Positions 47,559 to 60,788 of a stretch of 64,000 bases of DNA are shown piece after piece. Position 1 is the first letter of the stretch; each line of letters opens with the position of its first letter. The notes below the pieces were generated by a model that was not told where the DNA came from, did no database searches, and worked only from the letters and a program-made list of their open reading frames with translations. The stretch is from Demequina lignilytica (GTDB lineage Bacteria > Actinomycetota > Actinomycetes > Actinomycetales > Demequinaceae). The position numbers were made by a program, and so were the translations under genes. The stretch lies in contig NZ_JAUHPX010000007.1 in NCBI RefSeq assembly GCF_030418305.1, positions 1 to 64,000 of the forward strand, given 5' to 3'.

Positions 47559-47617
47559 CGGCACGATTCTCTTCGGGAGATCGATCCGCGCCCCGCGAAC
47601 GACACGATCGTCTTCAC
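47559..47617. repeat. 41-bp-pitch repeat array 1 (two units)
   Basis: CGGCACGATTCTCTTCGG (47559-47576) and CGACACGATCGTCTTCAC (47600-47617) are reverse-orientation copies of the GTGAAGCGAATCGTGTCG family. They start exactly 41 bp apart. The array lies between the convergent ends of the TDT and rhodanese genes. Confidence 0.85.
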
Positions 47618-47627
47618 GAGGCGGTCG

Positions 47628-47661
47628 GGGTGCGGATCGGGCGCGGGTGCGGATCGGGCGC
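47628..47661. repeat. Tandem duplication of a 17-bp unit
   Basis: GGGTGCGGATCGGGCGC occurs twice in tandem with no mismatch, 10 bp after the 41-bp-pitch array. It is probably a slippage duplication. Bases 47662-47687 can form a weak hairpin next to the rhodanese stop. Confidence 0.85.
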
Positions 47662-47687
47662 GGGTGGGGCTGGAGGGAGAGCCCCCG

Positions 47688-48101
47688 TCAGCCCGCGACG
47701 ATGTCGCCCGTCCAGGCGCCGATGCCGCCCTCCAGGCCCACGGTGCCCTCGACGCCGTCGGCGGCCATCCCCTCGATCGCGGCGCGCGAGCGGTTGCCGG
47801 AGCGGCAGTACACGGCGTACTCGCCCTCGGGGTCGAGCGCGGCGATCTGCGCGTCGAAGTCGGCGCCCTGGACGTCGATGTTCACGGCCTCGGGCAGGTG
47901 GCCCTCGGCGTACTCGGCGGGCGTGCGGACGTCGATGACGACCACGCCGTCGGTGGCGACGGCCTCGGCGAACCGCTCGGCGCTGACGTGGCCTCCGTCG
48001 AAGGCGAGGGGGGCGTCCTCGCCGCCCGAGCAGGCGGACAGCGTGACGGCGGCGAGCATGGCGGCACCGAGCATGGCGGCGCGGGTCTTGATGCGGGTCA
48101 T
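47688..48101 (-). CDS. Rhodanese-domain lipoprotein
   Basis: The 137-residue precursor has a lipoprotein signal peptide (LAAVTLSACSGG, lipobox LSAC). A single rhodanese domain has the active-site loop VYCRSGNRSRAA; its Cys would carry the persulfide. It transfers sulfane sulfur outside the membrane. A near-perfect CsoR/CstR-type operator lies 11 bp upstream of the start, and rhodaneses are classical members of CstR regulons that answer to persulfides. It is convergent with the TDT gene. Confidence 0.93.
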   Translation of the reverse strand: MTRIKTRAAMLGAAMLAAVTLSACSGGEDAPLAFDGGHVSAERFAEAVATDGVVVIDVRTPAEYAEGHLPEAVNIDVQGADFDAQIAALDPEGEYAVYCRSGNRSRAAIEGMAADGVEGTVGLEGGIGAWTGDIVAG

Positions 48102-48111
48102 GGGGAGAACT

Positions 48112-48127
48112 ATACCCCAGGGGGTAT
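48112..48127. promoter_or_regulatory. CsoR/CstR-type operator upstream of the rhodanese gene
   Basis: ATACCCCAGGGGGTAT is a near-perfect dyad 11 bp from the start codon, the clearest of the four copies. Binding would cover the ribosome-binding and promoter region and block expression. Confidence 0.72.
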
Positions 48128-48207
48128 GCATCCGGTGAGCGCGATGCGCCTCGCCCCCGACCCCGCCCCCACTCGCGACCCTCTCCCCCGACCCCCTTCC
48201 CTCGCTC

Positions 48208-48266
48208 ATGAAGGGAATCGTGTCGACCTCGAGCGCGGATCGCCCCCCGTGAAGCGATCCGTGCCG
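48208..48266. repeat. 41-bp-pitch repeat array 2 (two units)
   Basis: ATGAAGGGAATCGTGTCG (48208-48225) and GTGAAGCGATCCGTGCCG (48249-48266) are forward-orientation copies of the same 18-bp motif. They start exactly 41 bp apart, between the rhodanese start and the terminator of the next gene. Confidence 0.85.
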
Positions 48267-48274
48267 GACACGAC

Positions 48275-48321
48275 GGCGCCCGGCGCGCATCGCGGAGAGA
48301 CAGGCGATGCGGCCGGGCGCC
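48275..48321 (-). terminator. Terminator of the first aldehyde dehydrogenase gene
   Basis: GGCGCCCGGC pairs with GCCGGGCGCC, continued by GCGCATCGC with GCGATGCG, 17 bp after the dehydrogenase stop. Confidence 0.8.
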
Positions 48322-48337
48322 GGGTCGGCGAGCGGGC

Positions 48338-49699
48338 TCAGGCCACGCGGATGAGCTTCTTGTTGACGAACTCGTCCGCGGCCAGCAGGCCCATCTCCCG
48401 CGAGGTGCCGGAGCGCTTCACACCGCCGAACGGCAGCTCGGGGCTGTCGGCCAGCACGCAGTTGACGTAGACCATGCCGGCCTCGATCGCGTCGGCCACG
48501 CGCTGCGCCTGCGCCTCGTCCGTCGTGTAGACGTAGGAGCCCAGGCCGAACGCGGTGTCGTTCGCCAGCGCGATCGCCTCCTCCTCGCTCGTGACCTTGT
48601 ACACGGCGGCCGCGGGCCCGAACAGCTCCTCGCGGTACACGTCCATCTCGGGGGTGACCCCGGTCAGCACCGTCGGCGCGTAGAAGGCTCCGTCGCGGGT
48701 CCCGCCCGCGACCAGGGTCGCGCCCTGCGCGACCGCCGTCGCGACCTGGCCCTCGAGCCGCTCGGCCGCGGCGAGGGAGGACAGCGGTCCGATCACCGAG
48801 TCCTCCTCGAAGCCGTCGCCGGCCTTGCACGCGACCATGGCGGCGGTGAACTTCTCGAGGAACTCGTCGTACAGCGAGTCGATCACGATGAACCGCTTGG
48901 GGGCGTTGCAGGACTGCCCGCTGTTGTCCATGCGGGCCTCGACGGCGCCCTCGACCACGGCGTCCATGTCCTCGGTCGACAGCAGGATGAACGGGTCCGA
49001 CCCGCCCAGCTCGAGCGCGACCTTCTTGAGGTGCTGGCCCGCGAGCGCGGCCACGGCGGAGCCCGCCCGCTCGGAGCCCGTCACCGAGACGCCGTGGATG
49101 CGCGGGTCCGCGATGATCTGCGCGGCCTGCTCGTTCGACGCGTACACGTTGACGTAGACGCCCTCGGGGGCGCCTGCGTCGCGGTACATCTGCTCGATCG
49201 CGGCGGCCGACTCGGGGCACTGCGGGGCGTGCTTGAGGACGATGCTGTTGCCCACCACGATGTTCGGCGCGGCGAAGCGTGCCACCTGGTAGTAGGGGAA
49301 GTTCCACGGCATGATGCCGAGCAGCGGGCCGAGCGCCGAGCGGCGGATCACCGCGGTGCCCTCGCCCAGGATGTCGATCGGGGTGTCGCCCGTGATCGCC
49401 TCGGCGTTGTCGGCGTAGTACTCGGTGATGTCCGCGGCGAAGTCGACCTCGCCCAGGGCGTGCGACATCGGCTTGCCCATCTCGCGCACGATGATCGCGG
49501 CGAGCTCCTCGCGGCGCTCCCGGTGGAGCTCCGCCACGCGACGGATGACGGCGGCGCGCTCGGCGGGCGTCGAGCTCCGCAGCCAGCCGCGGTAGGCGGC
49601 GTCGGCGGCGGCGGCGGCCGCGGGGACCTCGGCGTCGGTCATGGTGGGGTACTCGGCGAGCGTCTCTCCGGTCGCGGGGTTGACCACTGCGTAGTTCAT
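48338..49699 (-). CDS. Aldehyde dehydrogenase, succinate-semialdehyde type (GabD1/YneI-like)
   Basis: The 453-residue NAD(P)-dependent dehydrogenase has catalytic Cys in DNSGQSCNAPKRF, glutamate in ALELGGSDPFIL and the Rossmann region GPLLGIMPWNFPYYQ. The short length (about 455) and these motifs match Sad/GabD1-type succinate-semialdehyde dehydrogenases, which complete GABA breakdown to succinate. It is the last of five leftward catabolic genes but is separated from gabD-like 49731 by 31 bp. Confidence 0.88.
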   Translation of the reverse strand: MNYAVVNPATGETLAEYPTMTDAEVPAAAAAADAAYRGWLRSSTPAERAAVIRRVAELHRERREELAAIIVREMGKPMSHALGEVDFAADITEYYADNAEAITGDTPIDILGEGTAVIRRSALGPLLGIMPWNFPYYQVARFAAPNIVVGNSIVLKHAPQCPESAAAIEQMYRDAGAPEGVYVNVYASNEQAAQIIADPRIHGVSVTGSERAGSAVAALAGQHLKKVALELGGSDPFILLSTEDMDAVVEGAVEARMDNSGQSCNAPKRFIVIDSLYDEFLEKFTAAMVACKAGDGFEEDSVIGPLSSLAAAERLEGQVATAVAQGATLVAGGTRDGAFYAPTVLTGVTPEMDVYREELFGPAAAVYKVTSEEEAIALANDTAFGLGSYVYTTDEAQAQRVADAIEAGMVYVNCVLADSPELPFGGVKRSGTSREMGLLAADEFVNKKLIRVA

Positions 49700-49730
49700 C
49701 TCTCTCCTCTTCCTTGAAGCTCGGTCGGTC

Positions 49731-51197
49731 TCAGTCGACGGGGATCAGGGTGTACTTGGTGGACAGGTACTCGTCGATGCCCTCGAGGCCGCCCTCGCGC
49801 CCGATGCCCGACTGCTTGACGCCGCCGAACGGTGCGGCGGCGTTGGACACCACGCCCGCGTTCAGACCCATCATGCCGGTGGCGAGCGAGTCGATCAGGC
49901 GATGGCCGCGCGCGAGATCCTGCGTGTACGCGTACGAGACCAGGCCGTACTCGGTGGCGTTCGCGAGCGCGACGCCCTCCTCCTCGGTCTCGAAGGTCGC
50001 GATCGCCAGCACCGGCCCGAAGATCTCCGTCGAGAGGATCTCGGAGCCGGGCTGCACGTCGGTGAGGACCGTGGGCTGGAGGAACGTGCCGGGGCCGTCC
50101 ACCGCCGCGCCGCCGGTCGCCAGGGAGGCGCCCCTGGTCACCGCATCGTCCACCAGGGCGAGGGACGATGCGACGGCCCGGTCGTCGATGAGCGGCCCGA
50201 TCTGGACGCCGTTCTCGGTACCGCGGCCGACCCGCATGGCGGTGACGCGCTCGGTGACGCGACGCGCGAACTCGTCGGCGACCGACGCGTGGACGATGAA
50301 GCGGTTGGCGGCGGTGCACGCCTGGCCGATGTTGCGGAACTTGGCCATGAGCGCGCCCTCGACGGCCTTGTCCAGGTCCGCATCCTCGAAGACGAGGAAC
50401 GGCGCGTTGCCGCCCAGCTCCATGGACACCCGGAGCACGCCGTCGGCGGCCTGCTTGATCAGCGCGCGCCCCACCTCGGTGGAGCCGGTGAAGGACAGCT
50501 TGCGCAGGCGCGGGTCCGCGAGGATCGGAGCGGTGACGCCGCGCGAGTCCGTCGAGGTGATGACGTTGACCACGCCCGCCGGCACGCCGACCTCCTCGAG
50601 GATCCCGACGAACGCCAGCGTGGTCAGCGGCGTGAGGGCCGCGGGCTTGACCACCACGGTGCAGCCCGCCGCGAGCGCCGGCGCGATCTTCCTGGTCGCC
50701 ATCGCGAGGGGGAAGTTCCAGGGCGTGATCAGGTACGACGGTCCGACCGGCCGCCGCGAGACCACCATGCGACCCGTGCCCTCCGGGTTGAGCCCGTAGC
50801 GGCCGGTGATGCGGACCGCCTCCTCGGAGAACCAGCGCAGGAACTCGTTGCCGTAGGCGACCTCTCCGCGCGCCTCCGCGAGCGGCTTGCCCATCTCGAG
50901 CGTCATGAGCAGCGCGAGGTCCTCGGCGCGCTCGCGCACCTTCTCGAAAGCGGCTCGCAGCAGCTCGCCGCGCACGCGCGGCGCCGTCGCTGCCCAGGCG
51001 TCCTGCGCGGCGACAGCGGCGTCGAGGGCCCGCTGCGCATCGTCCGGCGACGCGTCGGCGATCGACCGGATCACGTCGCCCGTCGACGGGTCGCGGACGT
51101 CGAACGTCGCGCCGGTGGACGATGCGGTCCACTCTCCCCCGATGTACAGCCCGGTGGGCACGGCGTTGAGGACGGCGCCCTCCCGCTCCGCGGTCAT
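49731..51197 (-). CDS. gabD: Succinate-semialdehyde dehydrogenase (GabD type)
   Basis: The 488-residue dehydrogenase has catalytic Cys in NIGQACTAANRF and glutamate in SMELGGNAPFLVFEDADLDKA, the usual SSADH signature; GPSYLITPWNFPLAMATRKI is also typical. It oxidises succinic semialdehyde to succinate. It overlaps gabT by 4 bp. The coding region contains four GGACGATGC/GCATCGTCC copies, two of them as an inverted pair (50143-50171). Confidence 0.92.
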   Translation of the reverse strand: MTAEREGAVLNAVPTGLYIGGEWTASSTGATFDVRDPSTGDVIRSIADASPDDAQRALDAAVAAQDAWAATAPRVRGELLRAAFEKVRERAEDLALLMTLEMGKPLAEARGEVAYGNEFLRWFSEEAVRITGRYGLNPEGTGRMVVSRRPVGPSYLITPWNFPLAMATRKIAPALAAGCTVVVKPAALTPLTTLAFVGILEEVGVPAGVVNVITSTDSRGVTAPILADPRLRKLSFTGSTEVGRALIKQAADGVLRVSMELGGNAPFLVFEDADLDKAVEGALMAKFRNIGQACTAANRFIVHASVADEFARRVTERVTAMRVGRGTENGVQIGPLIDDRAVASSLALVDDAVTRGASLATGGAAVDGPGTFLQPTVLTDVQPGSEILSTEIFGPVLAIATFETEEEGVALANATEYGLVSYAYTQDLARGHRLIDSLATGMMGLNAGVVSNAAAPFGGVKQSGIGREGGLEGIDEYLSTKYTLIPVD

Positions 51198-52555
51198 GCC
51201 GACGCCCCGGCGAACTGCGCCGCGATCACGTCGAGCCCCTCCGCGAGGAGAGCATCCGAGATGGACAGCGGCGGCAGGAATCGGATGACGTTGCCGTGGG
51301 TGCCGCAGGTGAGCACGATCACCCCCTCGGCGATCGCTCCCTTGGCGACCCTGCCCGCGAGCGCCGCGTCCGGGGCGCCCGTGGTCGGGTCGACGAACTC
51401 GACCGCGACCATCGCGCCGCGCCCGCGGACCTCGGCGATGCGCGGGTCGGACTCGCGCATCGTGTCCAGGCGGGAGGTGAGCAGCGTGCCGATCTCCGTC
51501 GCACGGTCCACCAGGCCGCCGTGCTCGAACGCGTCGATCGAGGCGAGCGCGGCCGCGCACGCGATGGGGTTGCCCCCGTACGTGCCGCCCAGGCCGCCGG
51601 CGTGCGACGCGTCCATGATGTCCGCGCGGCCGGTGACCGCGGCGAGCGGCAGGCCGCCCGCGATGCCCTTCGCCAGGGTCATGAGGTCGGGCTCGACACC
51701 GAACAGCTCGGACGCGAACATCGCGCCGGTGCGGCCGAAGCCGGTCTGGACCTCGTCGGCGATGAAGACCACGCCGTTGTCGCGGCACCAGTCCGCGACG
51801 GCGGGCAGGAAGCCCTCGGCCGGGACGATGAAGCCGCCCTCGCCCTGGATCGGCTCGATGATCACGGCCGCGAGGTTCGCCGCACCCACCTGCTTCTCGA
51901 TGAGGTCGATGGAGCGCGCCGCTGCCTCCGCACCGGACAGGCCGTCGCGCAGCGGGTAGGACGCGGGCGCGCGGTACACCTCGGACGCGAAGGGCCCGAA
52001 GCCGCTCTTGTAGGGCATCGACTTCGCCGTCAGCGCCATGGTGAGGTTGGTCCGCCCGTGGTAGGCGTGATCGAAGGCGACCACGGCCTGCCGGCCGGTG
52101 AACTTGCGCGCGATCTTGACGGCGTTCTCGACCGCCTCTGCGCCGGAGTTGAACAGCGCGGACTTCTTGGCGAAGGCGCCCGGCACGAGGCGGTTGAGGG
52201 CCTCGCACACCTCGACGTAGCCCTCGTAGGGCGACACCATGAAGCAGGTGTGCGTGAACTGCGCCGCCTGACGCTGGACGGCCTCGACCACGCCGGGGTG
52301 GGCGTTGCCCACGGACGTGACCGCGATCCCGGAGCCCAGGTCGATCAGCGAGTTGCCGTCGGCGTCGACCACGACGCCGCCTCCCGCGGCGACCGCCGAG
52401 ATGGGCGCGGTGTGACCGACGCCCGCCGCCACGGCGGCCGCCTTCCGGTCGAGGAGCTCCTGCGAGCGGGGCCCCGGGATCGCCGTGACCAGGCGGCGCT
52501 CCTGCGGCAGGCCGGGTCCGCCGATCAGCGGGCCCGCCTCGGGGGTGAGGGTCAT
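51194..52555 (-). CDS. gabT: 4-aminobutyrate aminotransferase
   Basis: The 453-residue PLP enzyme (class III) moves the amino group of GABA to 2-oxoglutarate, giving succinic semialdehyde. The PLP lysine is in PDLMTLAKGIAGGLPLAAV. FNSGAEAVENAVKIAR, AYHGRTNLTMALTAKSMPYK and FIADEVQTGFGRTG are typical of GabT. Its position between gabD and another aminotransferase, with 4-bp overlaps on both sides, confirms a GABA catabolic operon. Confidence 0.95.
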   Translation of the reverse strand: MTLTPEAGPLIGGPGLPQERRLVTAIPGPRSQELLDRKAAAVAAGVGHTAPISAVAAGGGVVVDADGNSLIDLGSGIAVTSVGNAHPGVVEAVQRQAAQFTHTCFMVSPYEGYVEVCEALNRLVPGAFAKKSALFNSGAEAVENAVKIARKFTGRQAVVAFDHAYHGRTNLTMALTAKSMPYKSGFGPFASEVYRAPASYPLRDGLSGAEAAARSIDLIEKQVGAANLAAVIIEPIQGEGGFIVPAEGFLPAVADWCRDNGVVFIADEVQTGFGRTGAMFASELFGVEPDLMTLAKGIAGGLPLAAVTGRADIMDASHAGGLGGTYGGNPIACAAALASIDAFEHGGLVDRATEIGTLLTSRLDTMRESDPRIAEVRGRGAMVAVEFVDPTTGAPDAALAGRVAKGAIAEGVIVLTCGTHGNVIRFLPPLSISDALLAEGLDVIAAQFAGASA

Positions 52556-53907
52556 GCTGCTGCTCCGTCTGCGACCACGAGGGCCGCGTCGATGATGTCC
52601 AGGCCGCGGCGCAGCTCATCCTCGGTGATGACCAGCGGGGGCGCGACGTGGATGCGGTTGAAGTGGATGAAGGGCCACAGTCCGGCCTTCTTGCAGGCGG
52701 CCGCGAGGGCCGTCATCGGGGCGGCGTCCGCACCCGACGCGTTGAAGGGCACCAGGCCCTCGCGGGTGTCCCGATCCTTGACCAGCTCGATGGCCCAGAA
52801 CAGGCCCGTGCCGCGGATCTCGCCCACGCTGGGGTGGGTCTCGAGCCAGCCCTCGAGGGTGGGGCGCACCACGCGCTCGCCCAGGTCCTTGACCCGCGCG
52901 AGGATGCCGTCACGCTCGAACACCTCGAAGGTCGCGATGCCGGGGGCGCAGGCGAGCGGGTGGCCGGAGTAGGTCAGGCCGCCGGGGAACGCGCGGTCGT
53001 CGAAGACGCGGGCGATCGCGTCCGAGATCACCACGCCGCCCAGCGGAACGTAGCCGGAGTTGACGCCCTTGGCGAAGGTGATGAGGTCCGGCACCACGTC
53101 GTGGCCCTGGAACGCGAACCACTCGCCGGTGCGGCCGAAGCCGACCATCACCTCGTCCGCGATGTAGACGATCCCGTACTTGTCGCACAGCGCGCGCACG
53201 CCCTGGAGGTAGCCCGGCGGGGGCACCAGCACGCCGTTGGTGCCCACCACGGTCTCGATGATGATCGCCGCGATGGTCGCTGCGCCCTCAAGCACGATCT
53301 GCTGCTCGAGGTGCGCGAGCGCGCGCTCGGTCTCCTCCTCGGGGGTCTGGGAGTAGAACGGCGAGCGGTAGAGGTAGGGGCCGAAGAAGTGCACGACCGA
53401 GCCGTCGGCCGGCTCGTTGGGCCAGCGGCGCGGGTCGCCCGTGAGGGAGATCGCCGTGGTGGTGTTGCCGTGGTAGCTGCGGTACATCGCCATCACCTTG
53501 CGACGGCCGGTGCTCAGGCGCGCCATGCGCACCGCGTTCTCGTTCGCGTCGGCGCCGCCGTTGGTGAAGAACACCTTGGAGAAGGGCGCCCCCGCCACGT
53601 CGACGATGCGCCGGGCGAGCTCGCCGCGTACGTCGTTCGCGAACGACGGCTGGATGGTGGCCATGCGCCCCGCCTGGCGCTCGATCGCGGCGACCAGGTC
53701 CGGATGCTGGTGGCCCAGGTTGAGGTTGACCAGCTGCGACGCGAAGTCGAGGTAGCGGTTGCCCGCGTAGTCCCAGAACTCGGCGCCGGCGCCGCCGGCG
53801 ACGGGCAGCGGGTCGATCTGGGCCTGCGCGCTCCACGAGTGGAACACGTGCGCGCGGTCGTCCGCGCGGACGCGGGCCTCGTCTCCGGTCATCAGCTGCT
53901 CGGTCAT
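52552..53907 (-). CDS. Class-III aminotransferase (amine or omega-amino acid type)
   Basis: The 451-residue PLP enzyme has the lysine in PDLITFAKGVNSGYVPLGG, FFTNGGADANENAVRMAR for cofactor phosphate and IVYIADEVMVGFGRTGEWFA. Its closest look is to putrescine/cadaverine-, taurine- or beta-alanine-pyruvate aminotransferases. It precedes gabT and follows an mmsA-type dehydrogenase, so it could start breakdown of a diamine or beta-alanine. The substrate cannot be fixed. ATG at 53907 with AGGAGAGG upstream. Confidence 0.85.
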   Translation of the reverse strand: MTEQLMTGDEARVRADDRAHVFHSWSAQAQIDPLPVAGGAGAEFWDYAGNRYLDFASQLVNLNLGHQHPDLVAAIERQAGRMATIQPSFANDVRGELARRIVDVAGAPFSKVFFTNGGADANENAVRMARLSTGRRKVMAMYRSYHGNTTTAISLTGDPRRWPNEPADGSVVHFFGPYLYRSPFYSQTPEEETERALAHLEQQIVLEGAATIAAIIIETVVGTNGVLVPPPGYLQGVRALCDKYGIVYIADEVMVGFGRTGEWFAFQGHDVVPDLITFAKGVNSGYVPLGGVVISDAIARVFDDRAFPGGLTYSGHPLACAPGIATFEVFERDGILARVKDLGERVVRPTLEGWLETHPSVGEIRGTGLFWAIELVKDRDTREGLVPFNASGADAAPMTALAAACKKAGLWPFIHFNRIHVAPPLVITEDELRRGLDIIDAALVVADGAAA

Positions 53908-53926
53908 ACGGTTCCTCTCCTGCTGC

Positions 53927-55414
<1,488 letters not shown>

Positions 55415-55438
55415 GAACACTCCCTCTGACGACGGGCG

Positions 55439-55460
55439 CCGGACACTCTGCAGGGTCCGG
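55439..55460. promoter_or_regulatory. Candidate operator between mmsA and the PucR regulator
   Basis: A 22-bp dyad runs from CCGGAC to GTCCGG with CTCTGCAG in the middle. It is immediately followed by TACGAT, a plausible -10 box for the rightward regulator gene. Its position between divergent genes suits the PucR protein acting on itself and on the catabolic operon. Confidence 0.6.
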
Positions 55461-55502
55461 CTACGATGGCTGTCACCCAAGACTCACACAGAGGGCAGGC
55501 AC

Positions 55503-57113
55503 ATGGTGGTGGCCGATCGTCGCAATCTCGCGAGCACCCGAACACATCGTCCGGAGCGCCATGCGCTGTCCGCGCTGCCCTCCGTCGCTGAGCTGCTGAC
55601 GGAGCCCGCCTTCCTCGAGGGGGTGCCCGAGGTGATCGTCGGCGGCGCCGCTCTGGAGGCGCCGGTGAGGTGGGTGCACACCTCGGAGCGCGACGACATC
55701 GCGGTCCACCTCGACGGACGCGAGCTGCTGCTGTCGATGGGCACCGCGTGGCCCGACACCGACGCCGAGCTCGACTCGTTCATCACCTCGCTCGTGGACG
55801 CCGGCCTGTCCGCCCTGCTGCTCGAGCTGGGCACCCGGTACCTCGAGGTGCCCACCGCGGTCCGTGCCGCCGCGCAGCGCCACGGACTCGCGTTGGTGGT
55901 GCTGCACCGCGTGGTGCGCTTCGTCACGCTCACGGAGGCCGGCCACAGCCGGATCATCGCGGGCCAGATGGCGGCGCTGCGCGCCCGCGACGAGGTCCGG
56001 GAGCTGTTCACCGGTCTCGCCCTGCGCGGCTCCCCCGCGGACCACGTGGTGCGCGAGCTCGCCCGCACCCTGGGCGCCCCGGTGGTGCTGGAGAGCCTCG
56101 CGCACGAGATGCTGATCGCGGAGGTGCCGGCCGGGGCCGAGGCGGCGGCGCTGCACGACTGGGAGCGGCGCTCGCGCGGAGCGCACCGCGGCAACGCGCT
56201 CGAGGAGGGCTGGGTCGTGGTGCCCGTCGACGCGCGCGGCAAGCGCTGGGGCTCGCTGGTCGCGCTGCCGGGGCCCGCCCATCCCGCCGGCCGCCGGAAC
56301 GTGCTGCTGCAGGGCGCGATCGCCCTCGCGCTCGGCCGCCTCGCTGACGGCGGCGTCGACACCTGGTCCACCCTCGCGCGCCGCCACCTGCTCGAACCGC
56401 TCATGGCGGGCCGCTTCCAGAGCCCCGAGGCCGCGGCCGCGCGCCTCGAGGCCGCAGGCGTCCCGGTCGCGGGCCGGCTGCTGTACGGCCTGGTGCTCAG
56501 CGGCGCGGGTCGCACCCCGGCCGACGTCGAGGCGTGGGCGCTCGCGCTCGGCGCCCGCGCCCGCGCGCTGGCGATCACCAGCCGGACGGGCGCCCCGCTG
56601 ACGATGGTGCTGCTGTCGAACCCCCAGCATCGTCCCCTCGACGACGACCACCTGCGCACGCTGCTGCGCGCGGCCCCCGACGGGGGACGCGTGTGCGCCA
56701 CGATCGGCACCGCGGCCACCGACATCGAGGGCGCCCTGCTGTCGCTGCACGAGGCGCTCGACAACGCCCCCGACACCGCGGCCGAGCAGCAGGTCCACTG
56801 GGTCGAGCGACGCCCGCTGGCGCGCCTCATCAGCAGCCTGCGCGACGACCACCGCCTGCTCGACCACGGCGAGCGCATGCTCACCCCGCTCATCGAGCAC
56901 GACCAGCGCACGGGCGGGGACCTGCTCCAGGTGCTGGGCGCCGCGCTCGCGCATCCCGGCAACCGGACCGCGGCCGCGAAGGCGGCGCACCTGTCGCGAT
57001 CGGTGTTCTACCAGCGCCTCGACCTGATCTCGCGCCTGCTCGAGGTCGACCTCGAGGACGGCGAGACCCAGACGGCGCTGCACATCGCGCTGCTGTCCCG
57101 CCACCGCGCCTGA
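55503..57113 (+). CDS. PucR-family transcriptional regulator
   Basis: The 536-residue regulator has an N-terminal PucR sensor domain (residues about 24-140; SVAELLTEPAFLEGVPEVIV), a GGDEF-like middle part and a C-terminal PucR-type helix-turn-helix (LAHPGNRTAAAKAAHLSRSVFYQRLDLI). Family members activate nitrogen and purine or GABA catabolism. It is divergent from mmsA-AT-gabT-gabD and convergent with the cupin/oxidase pair, so it is probably the local activator of amine use. Confidence 0.92.
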   Translation: MVVADRRNLASTRTHRPERHALSALPSVAELLTEPAFLEGVPEVIVGGAALEAPVRWVHTSERDDIAVHLDGRELLLSMGTAWPDTDAELDSFITSLVDAGLSALLLELGTRYLEVPTAVRAAAQRHGLALVVLHRVVRFVTLTEAGHSRIIAGQMAALRARDEVRELFTGLALRGSPADHVVRELARTLGAPVVLESLAHEMLIAEVPAGAEAAALHDWERRSRGAHRGNALEEGWVVVPVDARGKRWGSLVALPGPAHPAGRRNVLLQGAIALALGRLADGGVDTWSTLARRHLLEPLMAGRFQSPEAAAARLEAAGVPVAGRLLYGLVLSGAGRTPADVEAWALALGARARALAITSRTGAPLTMVLLSNPQHRPLDDDHLRTLLRAAPDGGRVCATIGTAATDIEGALLSLHEALDNAPDTAAEQQVHWVERRPLARLISSLRDDHRLLDHGERMLTPLIEHDQRTGGDLLQVLGAALAHPGNRTAAAKAAHLSRSVFYQRLDLISRLLEVDLEDGETQTALHIALLSRHRA

Positions 57114-57118
57114 GGGCC

Positions 57119-57469
57119 TCAGGGTGCGACGTAGACCTTCCGCAGCGTCTCGGTGACCGTCCACCGCGTGCGCATGCCTGCCTGCAGCCACACGAGCGAG
57201 CCCGGGCCGACCTCCGCGGGCGGCAGCGCGGGTTCGAGGTACTCGATGCGCGCGCGACCCGCGAGCACGACGAACACCTCGTCCACCTCGACGTCCGTGG
57301 CGACGCCCGGCGTCATCTCCCAGACCCCGATCTCGACCGCGCCGATCTCGGCGAGCGCCGCCGCGCCGTGCACGGGCGCGCCGGCCTCCAGCGCATCGTC
57401 CGGCACCGGCTCGGTCTCGATCGGCAGCGCGGTGAGGTCGACGGCGGCGCCGGGAGCGATGTCGGTCAT
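57119..57469 (-). CDS. Cupin-domain protein
   Basis: The 116-residue cupin contains GAVEIGVWEMTPGVATDVEVDEVFVVLAGRARIEY. One conserved cupin His is replaced by Asp/Glu, as in the (S)-ureidoglycine-like and PuuR-associated cupins. Its start overlaps the stop of the DAO-type oxidase by 4 bp. It is likely to assist or sense the product of that oxidase. Ligand unknown. Confidence 0.82.
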   Translation of the reverse strand: MTDIAPGAAVDLTALPIETEPVPDDALEAGAPVHGAAALAEIGAVEIGVWEMTPGVATDVEVDEVFVVLAGRARIEYLEPALPPAEVGPGSLVWLQAGMRTRWTVTETLRKVYVAP

Positions 57470-58857
57470 GAGTCGAACCCCAATCCGAGGCGGTCGAGCG
57501 TGCGGAGCAGCAGGTTGCGGCGCCCCTCGTGGTGGTCCGCGCGATCGAGCGACCAGCGCGTGGCGTTGATGCCGATGCTCGCCAGCGGCTCGGGCGGGAA
57601 CGGCAGCGGACGCTCCCGGACCATGCGCAGGCGGGTGCGCTCCGTGTCCTCGCCGGTCAGCAGGTCGAGCATCACGTTCGCGCCGAACCGGGTCGCGCCG
57701 ACGCCGAGCCCGGTGAAGCCGACCGAGTACGCGACGTCGCCGCCGCGGGCCGAGCCGAAGAAGGCGCAGAACCGCGTGCTCGTGTCGATCGCGCCCGCCC
57801 AGCGATGGGTGGCCTCGATGCCCTCGAGCTGCGGGAAGGTGGTGAGCAGGTGGCTCGCGAGCCGCTCGTAGGACTCGGAGCGGTCCTGGTAGGCCGCCTT
57901 GAGACGACCGCCCGCGTGGTAGATGGCGTCGTAGCCGCCGAAAAGGAGGCGGTCGTCAGCCGTCAGCCGGTAGTAGTGGAACTGGTTGCCCAGGTCCGCG
58001 ACCCCCTGGCGCCCCTCCCACCCGATCGCCCCGAGCTGCGCTGCCGTGAGCGGCTCGGTCATCAGCGAGTAGTCGAAGACCGGCACCGTCATGAGCCGGT
58101 TGCGCTTGAGCAGGGACGGGAACACGTTGGTCGCGAGCGCGACCTTGCGCGCGGCGACCACGCCGTCCCCGGTGCGCACCGCCGGGCCGTCCTCGAGAGC
58201 GGTCACGGGCGAGCGCTCGAAGATGCGCACGCCGAGCTCCTCGGCCACCCGTGCGAGCTCCCGGGCGAGCTTCGCCGGATGCACCAGGGCGGTGTCGTCC
58301 GGGCTGAGGCTGCCGGCCAGGTAGGTGGGCGAGTCGACCAGCGCGCGGGTGCCGGCGGCGTCGAGGAAGCCCTCGTCGTCGCGGAGCCAGTCGACCTGGT
58401 GCGGCTCCACGGCCACGGCGAGGGCGCCCGTGCGCTGCCAGTCCACGTCCATGCCGTAGCGGGCGACGGTGGCCTCGATCTGGTCGAGGTTCTCGAGGCC
58501 CAGCTGGTCGAGCCGGTCGATCTCCTCGGGCCAGCGCGACTCTCCGTTCTCGCGCCCGTGCGTCAGCGAGGCCTCGCAGAAGCCGCCGTTGCGGCCCGAG
58601 GCCGCCCACCCGACGCGGCGCGCCTCGAGGATCACCACGTCGAGGTCGGGATCGCGCTCCTTCGCCATCACCGCGGTCCACAGGCCGCTGTAGCCGCCGC
58701 CGACCACCACCAGGTCGGCCCGATGGCTGCCCGCGAGGGCGGGGCGCTCCGGCCCCGGCGCATCGTCCGTCCAGAAGGGGGCGAGGCGCGACGACGCGAG
58801 CATCGCGCGCACGGCGTCGGCGGAGGGTCGGTCACGTTCGAAGACCGTGGTGCCCAC
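57466..58857 (-). CDS. FAD-dependent amine/amino acid oxidase (DAO family, PuuB-like)
   Basis: The 463-residue flavoprotein starts its FAD site with HRADLVVVGGGYSGLWTAVMAKE and has GWAASGRNGGFCEASLTHG, typical of gamma-glutamylputrescine oxidase (PuuB/OrdL) relatives. It would oxidise a secondary or primary amine to an aldehyde, giving NH3 and H2O2 or a reduced acceptor. GTG 58857 with GGAG 9 bp upstream is the best start; longer in-frame starts reach 58935. It pairs with the cupin gene. Confidence 0.9.
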   Translation of the reverse strand: MGTTVFERDRPSADAVRAMLASSRLAPFWTDDAPGPERPALAGSHRADLVVVGGGYSGLWTAVMAKERDPDLDVVILEARRVGWAASGRNGGFCEASLTHGRENGESRWPEEIDRLDQLGLENLDQIEATVARYGMDVDWQRTGALAVAVEPHQVDWLRDDEGFLDAAGTRALVDSPTYLAGSLSPDDTALVHPAKLARELARVAEELGVRIFERSPVTALEDGPAVRTGDGVVAARKVALATNVFPSLLKRNRLMTVPVFDYSLMTEPLTAAQLGAIGWEGRQGVADLGNQFHYYRLTADDRLLFGGYDAIYHAGGRLKAAYQDRSESYERLASHLLTTFPQLEGIEATHRWAGAIDTSTRFCAFFGSARGGDVAYSVGFTGLGVGATRFGANVMLDLLTGEDTERTRLRMVRERPLPFPPEPLASIGINATRWSLDRADHHEGRRNLLLRTLDRLGLGFDS

Positions 58858-58974
58858 GGATATCAGCTCCAGTCCTGTCCAGACGGTCCGGCCACGGGGA
58901 CGCCGCCTGAGGAGATCGAAGCCCACCCGTGCCATCGCGCGCAAGGGGCGAGGGACCCGGCCGGACGGACCGGC

Positions 58975-59005
58975 GGACGATGCGGCACCGCCTGACGCAT
59001 CGTCC
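58975..59005. repeat. GGACGATGC inverted pair upstream of the oxidase and aminotransferase genes
   Basis: GGACGATGCG (58975-58984) and CGCATCGTCC (58996-59005) form a 10-bp stem with an 11-nt loop, in the divergent promoter region between 58857 and 59160. Nothing else was recognised in that 300-bp gap except GTTGAC and TACCAT at about 59022-59046, a possible rightward promoter. Confidence 0.75.
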
Positions 59006-59159
59006 ACCCATGACCGTTGACGGGCGCCCGGGGCGCTCGGTTACCATCCTGTTCAGACGCCGTCGCGCGTCGCGATCGGGTCGCGCCAGGCCGGCGGCCG
59101 ATCGGTCCCCTCCGTTTCTCGGAGACACCCGACGCCAGGCCGGTCGGGTGGAGGGAACC

Positions 59160-60533
59160 ATGCCTGTCATTCTCGACCGCGCCCGCATCGCCCAGCTCAT
59201 CGAGGAGCAGACCGCGCTCCTCAACGAGCGCACCACGAAGTCCAAGGCGATGTACGCGCACGCCAGCGAGCACCTCTCGGGCGGCGTCGCGTCCAGCTAC
59301 CAGGGCCGCGACCCGTGGCCGATCTACATCGAGTCCGGCGCGGGCGACCGCATCACGGACGTCGACGGCAACGAGTACTTCGACTTCCACAACGGCTTCG
59401 GGTCGATGGTCCAGGGCCACGCGCACCCGGCGATCGGCGACGCGATCCAGAAGCGCTACCCGCTCGGCACGCACTTCGCCGCGGCCACCGAGGACGTCAT
59501 CGACGTCGCCGACGAGCTCGCCCGCCGCTGGGGCATCCCCAAGTGGCGCTTCACCAACTCGGGCTCCGAGTCCACCATGGATGCGATCCGCATCGCCCGC
59601 GCCTACACCGGCCGCGACACCGTCATGAAGATCTTCGGCTCGTACCACGGCCACCACGACACGGTCATGGTGTCGATCGGCGTCGAGTACGACAAGATCG
59701 GCGACCGCGAGAACCTCGCCTCGCTCCCCTACGGCGCGGGCATCCCGCAGGCGGTGGTCGACATGACCATCGCTGTGCCGTTCAACGACGCGGGCGCGAT
59801 GGAGCGCCGCATCGAGCGCCTCGACGCGGAGGGCCGGAAGCCGGCGTGCGTGATCATGGAGGCCGCCATGATGAACCTGGGCGTGGTGCTGCCCGAGCCG
59901 GGCTACCTCGAGGCCGTCCGCGAGATCACGCGCAGGCACGGGATCGTCCTGATCTTCGACGAGGTCAAGACGGGTCTCGCCATCGCCGCGGGCGGCGCGA
60001 CCGAGAAGTTCGGGGTCACCCCCGACATGGTGACGCTCGCGAAGGTGCTGGGCGGCGGCATGCCCTCGGGCGCCATCGGCGGCACCGAGGAGGTCATGAG
60101 CGTGGTCGAGGACCACTCCGTCTACCAGGTGGGCACCTACAACGGGAACCCGCTGTCGATGGCCGCGGCGAAGGCCTCGCTGCTCGAGGTGCTGACCCCC
60201 GAGGCGTACGTGCGGCTGGGCGAGCTCAACGATCGGATCGTCGCCGGCTGCCAGGCCGTGATCGACAAGTACGACCTCGCGGGGTACGCGATCGGCATCG
60301 GCTCCAAGGGCTGCGTGACGTTCTCCACCGAGAAGATCGTCGACTACGAGACCTTCAAGAACGCGCAGGACGTCGAGCTGTGCGATCTGGCGTGGCTGTG
60401 GAACATGAACCACGGGATCTTCATGACGCCCGGCCGTGAGGAGGAGTGGACCCTCTCCGTGGTGCACTCCGACGAGTCGGTGGATGCCTACATCGCCGCG
60501 TTCGACGCGCTCGCGGCGGCGCTGACGAGCTGA
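59160..60533 (+). CDS. Class-III aminotransferase, glutamate-1-semialdehyde aminomutase-like
   Basis: The 457-residue PLP enzyme carries the lysine in PDMVTLAKVLGGGMPSGAI and the segment LSGGVASSYQGRDPWPIYIE, which is closest to glutamate-1-semialdehyde 2,1-aminomutase-like aminotransferases. True HemL is about 430 residues and sits with heme genes. Here the amine catabolic neighbours argue for an aminotransferase acting on an amino acid or diamine. GGAGGG is 4 bp upstream of the ATG. Confidence 0.87.
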   Translation: MPVILDRARIAQLIEEQTALLNERTTKSKAMYAHASEHLSGGVASSYQGRDPWPIYIESGAGDRITDVDGNEYFDFHNGFGSMVQGHAHPAIGDAIQKRYPLGTHFAAATEDVIDVADELARRWGIPKWRFTNSGSESTMDAIRIARAYTGRDTVMKIFGSYHGHHDTVMVSIGVEYDKIGDRENLASLPYGAGIPQAVVDMTIAVPFNDAGAMERRIERLDAEGRKPACVIMEAAMMNLGVVLPEPGYLEAVREITRRHGIVLIFDEVKTGLAIAAGGATEKFGVTPDMVTLAKVLGGGMPSGAIGGTEEVMSVVEDHSVYQVGTYNGNPLSMAAAKASLLEVLTPEAYVRLGELNDRIVAGCQAVIDKYDLAGYAIGIGSKGCVTFSTEKIVDYETFKNAQDVELCDLAWLWNMNHGIFMTPGREEEWTLSVVHSDESVDAYIAAFDALAAALTS

Positions 60534-60539
60534 GGTTGG

Positions 60540-60568
60540 GGGTGGGGCGGGTCCGTCCCGCCCCACCC
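60540..60568 (+). terminator. Terminator after the aminotransferase gene
   Basis: GGGTGGGGCGGG and CCCGCCCCACCC form a 12-bp stem with loop TCCGT, 6 bp after the stop codon. Confidence 0.87.
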
Positions 60569-60606
60569 GCACTCGCATCCCCACCCCTCGCCCCGGTTCC
60601 CGCGTG

Positions 60607-60788
60607 GTGAAGCGAATCGTGTCGTTGAGCACATGCCCGACGCCCCGAAGAAGTGAATCGTGTCGCCGAGCGCCCGCGGCATGCTCCCGTGACCAGAATC
60701 GCGCCGGCCTGCGGTTCACCTCGCTGCGCCGGCACGATTCGCTTCACCGGAGCCCTGCGCCCGCGCGTGCCGACAGGAATCTCTTCAC
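60607..60788. repeat. 41-bp-pitch repeat array 3 (five units)
   Basis: Left edges lie at 60607, 60648, 60689, 60730 and 60771, each exactly 41 bp apart. The first three units are forward (GTGAAGCGAATCGTGTCG and variants) and the last two reverse (CGGCACGATTCGCTTCAC and a variant). The array fills the gap between the convergent aminotransferase and pflA genes. The spacers differ from one another. Confidence 0.9.

Follow-up and report, generated by a model that had tools for sequence, protein, structure and literature searches.

Paired 18-bp motifs at a 41-bp pitch in Demequina lignilytica: probable gene-less arms of a single-gene element that encodes a predicted AbiEi-like nuclease

The window analysed here is the whole stretch of 64,000 nucleotides at the start of contig NZ_JAUHPX010000007.1 of Demequina lignilytica, in which three short arrays are built from an 18-bp motif repeated at a pitch of 41 bp. 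These arrays are probably, at a rough probability of two in three, non-autonomous copies of the arms that end a small element with a single gene. In its autonomous form this element would consist of one arm, a gene for a protein of ~300 amino acids (aa) and a second, inverted arm. Arms of this kind bracket a gene elsewhere in the same genome, and arms of other sequences bracket many of its homologues in related species.

The nine copies of the motif reported in an earlier note on this DNA are all present (Table 1) and differ from the 18-mer quoted there at 0 to 5 positions; adjoining copies start exactly 41 bp apart in every array, including where the orientation flips within the third. Because the 18-mer reads as an imperfect dyad (GAxxCGAnTCGxxTC), the distance across the flip (60689/60730) is 40 when measured between dyad centres. 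The copies are arranged as ordered pairs, in which subsite A (approximately RTGAAGCGRATCGTGTCG) is followed by a 23-nt spacer and then by subsite B (approximately RTGAAGNGANNCGTGCCG); the spacer ends in CCCC in 7 of 12 A-B pairs. The window contains four such pairs and one weak unit in the same register (60689), which is a remnant or chance. The unit is therefore an arm of ~60 bp with two subsites and not an ordinary 41-bp tandem repeat, the outcome against which the earlier note had set its own proposal. A plain tandem repeat was rejected since neither the spacers nor the flanks repeat.

The genome to which the window belongs (G000) comprises 2.90 Mb in 18 contigs. It was searched with R1, a sequence-only model made from 12 of its A-B pairs, which returns 13 pairs with expectation values (E) from 1.3e-15 to 3.7e-12, the next match lying at 0.04. 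The pitch is 41 in 12 of these and 42 in one (C11:228310), so that the spacing, for which a genome-wide check had been proposed, is not a local coincidence. The pairs are spread over seven contigs, with five on the window's contig and four of these within the window. Judged with a crude open reading frame (ORF) picker and the ORF list of the window, 11 lie outside picked ORFs and two overlap the 3' part of one, at the stop of the gene on contig C2 described below and at the end of the C1 ORF 691552-692517. Chance, or a plain degenerate tandem repeat, is scarcely credible as a source of this pattern. The unconserved spacers of G000 and the lack of a 41-bp peak in the autocorrelation of the window alone would fit such an origin, but 7 copies with at most 3 mismatches are observed in the window against 0.17 expected, a count reached in 0 of 100 shuffles, the 13 pairs are sharply set off from noise, and arms taken from other genes recur across the genus.

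The element itself is represented on contig C2, where a gene of 302 aa (C2:68358-69266, minus strand) is bracketed by inward-facing pairs at 68316 (plus) and 69328 (minus), its stop codon falling within the B subsite of the 3' arm. In a search of the genus, R1, although made of G000 sequences only, finds 13 near-full-length matches (E ≤ 3e-4) in a second genome, G017. The G017 pairs are written in a different sequence variant, or dialect, from those of G000 with the pitch unchanged, and two of them (C11:240816 plus and 241911 minus) face inward around a gene for a 54%-identical homologue of the C2 protein. Both genomes thus have the partner gene with inverted copies of the repeat on either side. 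Away from the gene, G000 has solo arms and a single inward doublet scattered over its contigs. The dispersed copies are closer to the arms of their own genome than to those of the other in 10 of 10 cases for G000 and 10 of 11 for G017. Pattern searches of the genus and family at no more than 3 mismatches give matches in G000 only, which is attributed to other dialects elsewhere, and a scan of the whole collection at pitch 42 yields 30 scattered matches that represent background only. G000 also holds a second dialect, that of the gene at C12:149166, with a plus-then-minus doublet ~3.4 kb from the C1 pair.

Homologues of the C2 protein are found in 46 of 47 genomes of the family (199 matches), and a sample of the order (248 genomes, E ≤ 1e-25) adds just two genomes from one other family. 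Flanks were read for 80 genes (160 flanks) and then for 94 genes from 38 genomes; these 94 consist of 91 of the 199 family matches, largely top-ranked, and three from another family. The 5' flank resembles the inverted 3' flank with a score above 16 in 67 of the 94 homologues and above 20 in 57, compared with 2 and 1 of 85 control genes. Flanks of different genes whose proteins share less than 35% identity exceed 16 in 22 of 5,078 pairs; such cross-gene similarity becomes commoner as the proteins grow more alike (81 of 262 pairs at an identity of 60% or more), a rise that conserved neighbourhoods may partly inflate. A cross-genome control at less than 42% protein identity has its 99% point at 16.1 (maximum 55.5), which is exceeded by 23 of 33 genes.

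A clear internal direct repeat is seen in 92 of the 160 flanks, at an offset of 41 in 39 of them, 42 in 12 and any other value in at most 6. Control flanks free of known elements show a direct repeat in 49 of 122, with offset 39 in 7 and 41 in 1. Before known elements were removed, offset 41 led the flanks of the control genes with 9 cases, 8 of which overlap known elements, because those loci had been chosen around pairs. The arms differ in sequence between paralogs while the 41-bp pitch often stays. A further arm type is a hairpin of ~57-64 bp with inverted subsites (flanks L189, L202, L211, L223, L225 and L230), which reaches another family of the order (L202). Separately, the flanks of one homologue (L231, G034:C1:1515350-1518150) show strong 41-bp autocorrelation, with scores of 30 and 57, possibly representing a multi-unit array. 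DUF559 genes were also sought in eight genomes, five of which gave matches; no convincing arms were found at L261 (9.8), L264 (14.0) or L265 (10.4), the loci whose ORF was short enough for the arm test, with L262, L263 and L266 falling outside it, and arms may therefore be confined to the subfamily of the C2 protein.

Two further models were built from gene-flanking arms alone, R2 from 10 direct-repeat arms that form one group and R3 from 6 hairpin arms that form another, and were searched in 44 genomes. At E ≤ 1e-4 R2 has 175 matches, a total that counts its 10 training arms; they come from 13 genomes, with the highest numbers in G017 (40), G006 (36) and G042 (25). R3 has matches in 18 genomes, with G008 (54) and G017 (40) at the head; palindromic R3 sites frequently count twice, once per strand. 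At E ≤ 1e-4 G000 has no match to either model. Doublets of R2 copies mostly face inward: among 150 listed of the 175 matches, this holds for 19 of 19 neighbours less than 400 bp apart and for 9 of 10 at a distance of 0.8-2.3 kb, of which five enclose the gene. In the five gene-bearing units the arms lie 1,040-1,049 bp apart, leaving space for one gene only. Other contents were noted between some inward R2 arms of G017. Two sets 0.8-1.0 kb apart have the nuclease gene replaced by lipoprotein-like and acetyltransferase-like genes, which are possible passengers (L267, G017:C8:299700-301400; L268, G017:C2:32250-34100), and a third, 1.7 kb apart, encloses an ISL3-like transposase gene (L269, G017:C11:1031200-1033650), all named from translations.

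The C2 protein is predicted to consist of an AbiEi-like DNA-binding domain fused to a nuclease of the Vsr/homing-endonuclease type. Its structure was modelled from an alignment of 77 of the 80 proteins, with a predicted local distance difference test (pLDDT) of 95 and a predicted template modelling score (pTM) of 0.88. In this model residues 193-302 resemble the endonuclease-like protein 3hrl (Z 13.0, 1.9 Å over 92 residues), the homing endonuclease I-Bth0305I (3r3p, Z 12.5) and Vsr (1cw0, Z 9.9), whilst residues 4-190 resemble the AbiEi antitoxin (6y8q, Z 10.3), with a root mean squared deviation of 6.2 Å over 179 residues. Seven residues (E198, D230, E241, D243, H248, R260 and C286) are invariant in 80 of 80 proteins. 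The modelled fold and the invariant E, D, ExD, H and R in the aligned sequences are consistent with a PD-(D/E)xK nuclease of the Vsr/DUF559 type. Pfam assigns MTES_1575 to 76 of 77 members, DUF559 to 70 and AbiEi_4 to 10, and the six Pfam families listed for these members include no Y1 transposase and no DDE or other transposase. PADLOC names AbiEi in 20 of 25 listed families, the top family matching 54 of the 77 members, and of the same members 10 match the NCBIfam anti-phage model ProA and 8 match Hhe. An origin from a plasmid, phage or virus was rejected: tblastn of plasmids and phages with the C2 protein gives no match, and in viral contigs 15 stretches fit the peptide pattern with none confirmed, in a search that reaches close relatives only.

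The resemblance to the AbiEi antitoxin, together with the PADLOC and anti-phage assignments and the location of some pairs upstream of genes, would suit a regulator or defence protein for which the pairs serve as operators and the dispersed pairs as a regulon or decoys. This is unlikely, as the arm also occurs in inverted form on the downstream side of the gene, the genes on either side of arrays 1 and 3 are convergent, and the close R2 doublets listed all face inward. An operator or regulon was rejected for a further reason: the genes beside the G000 pairs, which by their translations include ndk/apt, gyrA/MFS, a DEAD helicase, phosphoketolase/alcohol dehydrogenase, deoC and others, have no evident common function. 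A homing-type spread, by which the nuclease cuts an element-free allele and recombination copies the gene with its arms, leaving solo arms as footprints, is distinctly unlikely. The place of I-Bth0305I among the closest solved relatives of the C-terminal domain and the lack of a consistent target duplication agree with it, but a homing gene normally interrupts one site, whereas complete pairs are found here on both sides, and the spread to many unrelated sites is left unaccounted for.

Conservation within the pairs is uneven. In the 12 G000 pairs other than that with pitch 42, mean pairwise identity is 0.40 for the spacers against 0.79 for the 18-mers, in agreement with the unconserved spacers described previously; in the 13 G017 pairs the values are 0.59 and 0.84, and there the spacers are partly conserved. 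Such cores, and the mostly intergenic placement, are what would be expected of architectural sites that the host maintains to organize its nucleoid or to process 3' ends, and that the nuclease gene simply shares. That explanation is very improbable, since the sequence varies by paralog and by species with several dialects per genome, and syntenic sites of relatives do not carry the same elements. Inspection by eye revealed no array 1 in the gap between the SLAC1 and rhodanese genes of 10 relatives and no array 2 in the 7 of these that retain the adjoining aldehyde dehydrogenase gene. In G013 the same SLAC1-rhodanese gap has a pair of a different dialect at offset 41; of all arms of the 94 genes, the two that match it best belong to a single G013 gene. 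Similarly, G035 has a pair of another dialect at offset 41 beside the rhodanese gene start, near the site equivalent to array 2 (L250), for which no cognate was found among the genes read.

The earlier note had proposed a cooperatively bound protein or an architectural element. The first half of this proposal stands in part, as the pitch would fit paired protein sites on one face of the DNA. A purely architectural or operator array is not supported, because the arms bracket a nuclease gene as its inverted ends, because dispersed arms adjoin functionally unconnected genes, because inspection of the syntenic gaps in relatives did not show the arms, and because the arms of paralogs differ in sequence, often at the same pitch.

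If the arrays are gene-less arms of the element, the N-terminal AbiEi-like domain would bind the subsites, with two protein units some four helical turns apart along the same face of the DNA that could synapse with the opposite arm. Cutting or nicking at the element ends may then fall to the C-terminal Vsr/PD-(D/E)xK-type domain, as a result of which the gene unit or a gene-less doublet would be copied or moved with the help of host repair. Gene-less doublets would be mobilized in trans. Each paralog is proposed to recognize its own dialect, and several families could therefore coexist in one genome.

A number of observations weigh against this interpretation. Movement itself was not observed; arms and gene are found in association, from which we infer mobilization by the nuclease. 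In a blind autocorrelation confined to the window, no peak stands at 41 bp (3 matches at 41, 8 at 42 and 6 each at 27, 33 and 66), array 2 being missed at the threshold used; the 41-bp pattern is carried by the motif rather than by bulk repeats. The window pairs at 47559 (minus) and 48205 (plus), in R1 coordinates, point outward around the rhodanese-like gene. Among the 94 homologues 27 have no inverted score above 16, and 2 of the 67 that pass, the C2 gene included, score on C-rich sequence and not on arms, leaving 65. The cross-genome control unfiltered for relatedness has its 99% point at 43.3, which only 3 of 33 genes exceed, because it is swamped by relatives that share a dialect. The far better preservation of the G000 cores than of their spacers is not what plain decay of mobile copies predicts; it may reflect selection on bound sites or recurrent conversion. 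R2 copies are also present in G019 (17; both genes read) and G014 (12; four of five genes read), where the genes read have other arms. No consistent target-site duplication, and no clear excess at 2-9 bp, was found in 13 of 17 doublets (four with uncertain ends were dropped), some of the doublets being orthologous and the copies both old and GC-rich. Much of the dispersal is old, as five pairs of doublet loci prove homologous across species. Finally, a doublet of G042 (L286, G042:C17:91300-94000) is common to G006 but has no clean empty site, because G013 (L308) has a TetR-type gene, named from its translation, in its place; G009, G014 and G019 have a gene start similar to this gene there.

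Within the window, array 1 sits between convergent SLAC1-family and rhodanese-like genes, array 2 in the gap that separates the start of the rhodanese-like gene from the end of an aldehyde dehydrogenase gene, and array 3 is flanked by convergent genes. The left and right arms of array 3 form an inward-facing doublet comparable to those of R2. Gene names in the window (SLAC1, aldehyde dehydrogenase, class-III aminotransferase, radical S-adenosylmethionine (SAM) and pyruvate-formate-lyase) are from Pfam, except for the rhodanese-like gene, which has no Pfam match and was named from its translation. As a separate observation, aldehyde dehydrogenases, class-III aminotransferases and a pyruvate-formate-lyase-like enzyme with its radical SAM activase cluster at 41810-63875.

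Table 1. Arms and motif units of the window, with positions counted from its first nucleotide
Feature	Coordinates	Strand	Subsite A	Subsite B	Match
Array 1, one A-B pair	47559..47617	-	47600-47617	47559-47576	R1 E=1.6e-13
Array 2, one A-B pair	48208..48266	+	48208-48225	48249-48266	R1 E=1.3e-15
Array 3, left arm, A-B pair	60607..60665	+	60607-60624	60648-60665	R1 E=2.2e-12
Array 3, fifth and weak unit, in register with the others	60689..60706	+			5 mismatches
Array 3, right arm, A-B pair	60730..60788	-	60771-60788	60730-60747	R1 E=6.4e-13

The balance tips slightly towards a mobile repeat system of a new class in prokaryotes: a fusion of an AbiEi-like domain and a Vsr-type nuclease would mobilize its own paired-subsite arms, with paralogs and arms co-diverging into private dialects. 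Such a class would be analogous but unrelated to the systems of repetitive extragenic palindromes (REPs), their inverted doublets (REPINs) and REP-associated tyrosine transposases (RAYTs), and some annotated AbiEi antitoxins would be enzymes of this kind. In the open-licence literature (subscription literature being outside the scope), no tie of DUF559 genes to flanking or dispersed repeats was found among the matches listed. Dispersed intergenic repeats would gain a partner gene that is not a RAYT, which bears on what spreads REP-like families described without one (PMC3733652, in the passages cited here). The genus offers several sequence-divergent pairs of protein and arm, a natural series for studying how such a nuclease reads DNA. 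Caution is also called for, as genes that match AbiEi defence models may be selfish elements.

Comparison with known systems sets the element apart from several of them. Plasmid iterons adjoin a plasmid replication gene, whereas the G000 pairs are spread over the genome between chromosomal-looking genes. The AbiE type IV toxin-antitoxin shares the AbiEi fold of residues 4-190 but requires an adjacent AbiEii toxin gene, for which the measured units leave no space between the arms; a nuclease domain is found here instead. Vsr and I-Bth0305I have the same catalytic-domain fold (residues 193-302), which in this case is fused to the AbiEi-like domain and bracketed by complete arms. Insertion sequences and miniature inverted-repeat transposable elements (MITEs) similarly have terminal inverted repeats and gene-less derivatives; however, no DDE transposase is among the Pfam matches and the modelled structure matches PD-(D/E)xK-type nucleases. 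CGTC-tagged REPs, likened here by description, are dispersed short repeats that often occur as inverted dimers, and the cited passages report no dedicated transposase for them (PMC3733652), in contrast to the partner gene identified here.

The closest likeness in organization is to REP/REPIN with RAYT (TnpA-REP), which has a single partner gene between inverted repeat copies and dispersed solo and inward-paired copies. A REP is a GTAG-tagged hairpin (a palindrome of 20-40 bp), whereas the G000 dialect has two direct subsites 41 bp apart and no GTAG; hairpin arms do exist in other paralogs, and the R2 dialect happens to contain GGTAG. The RAYT partner is an HUH tyrosine transposase and that of the present system an AbiEi-like and Vsr-like nuclease, and on account of this difference in the defining enzyme the system is not filed under REP/RAYT, though it would work alike. 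In both, the sequence families vary by species and several occur in one genome.

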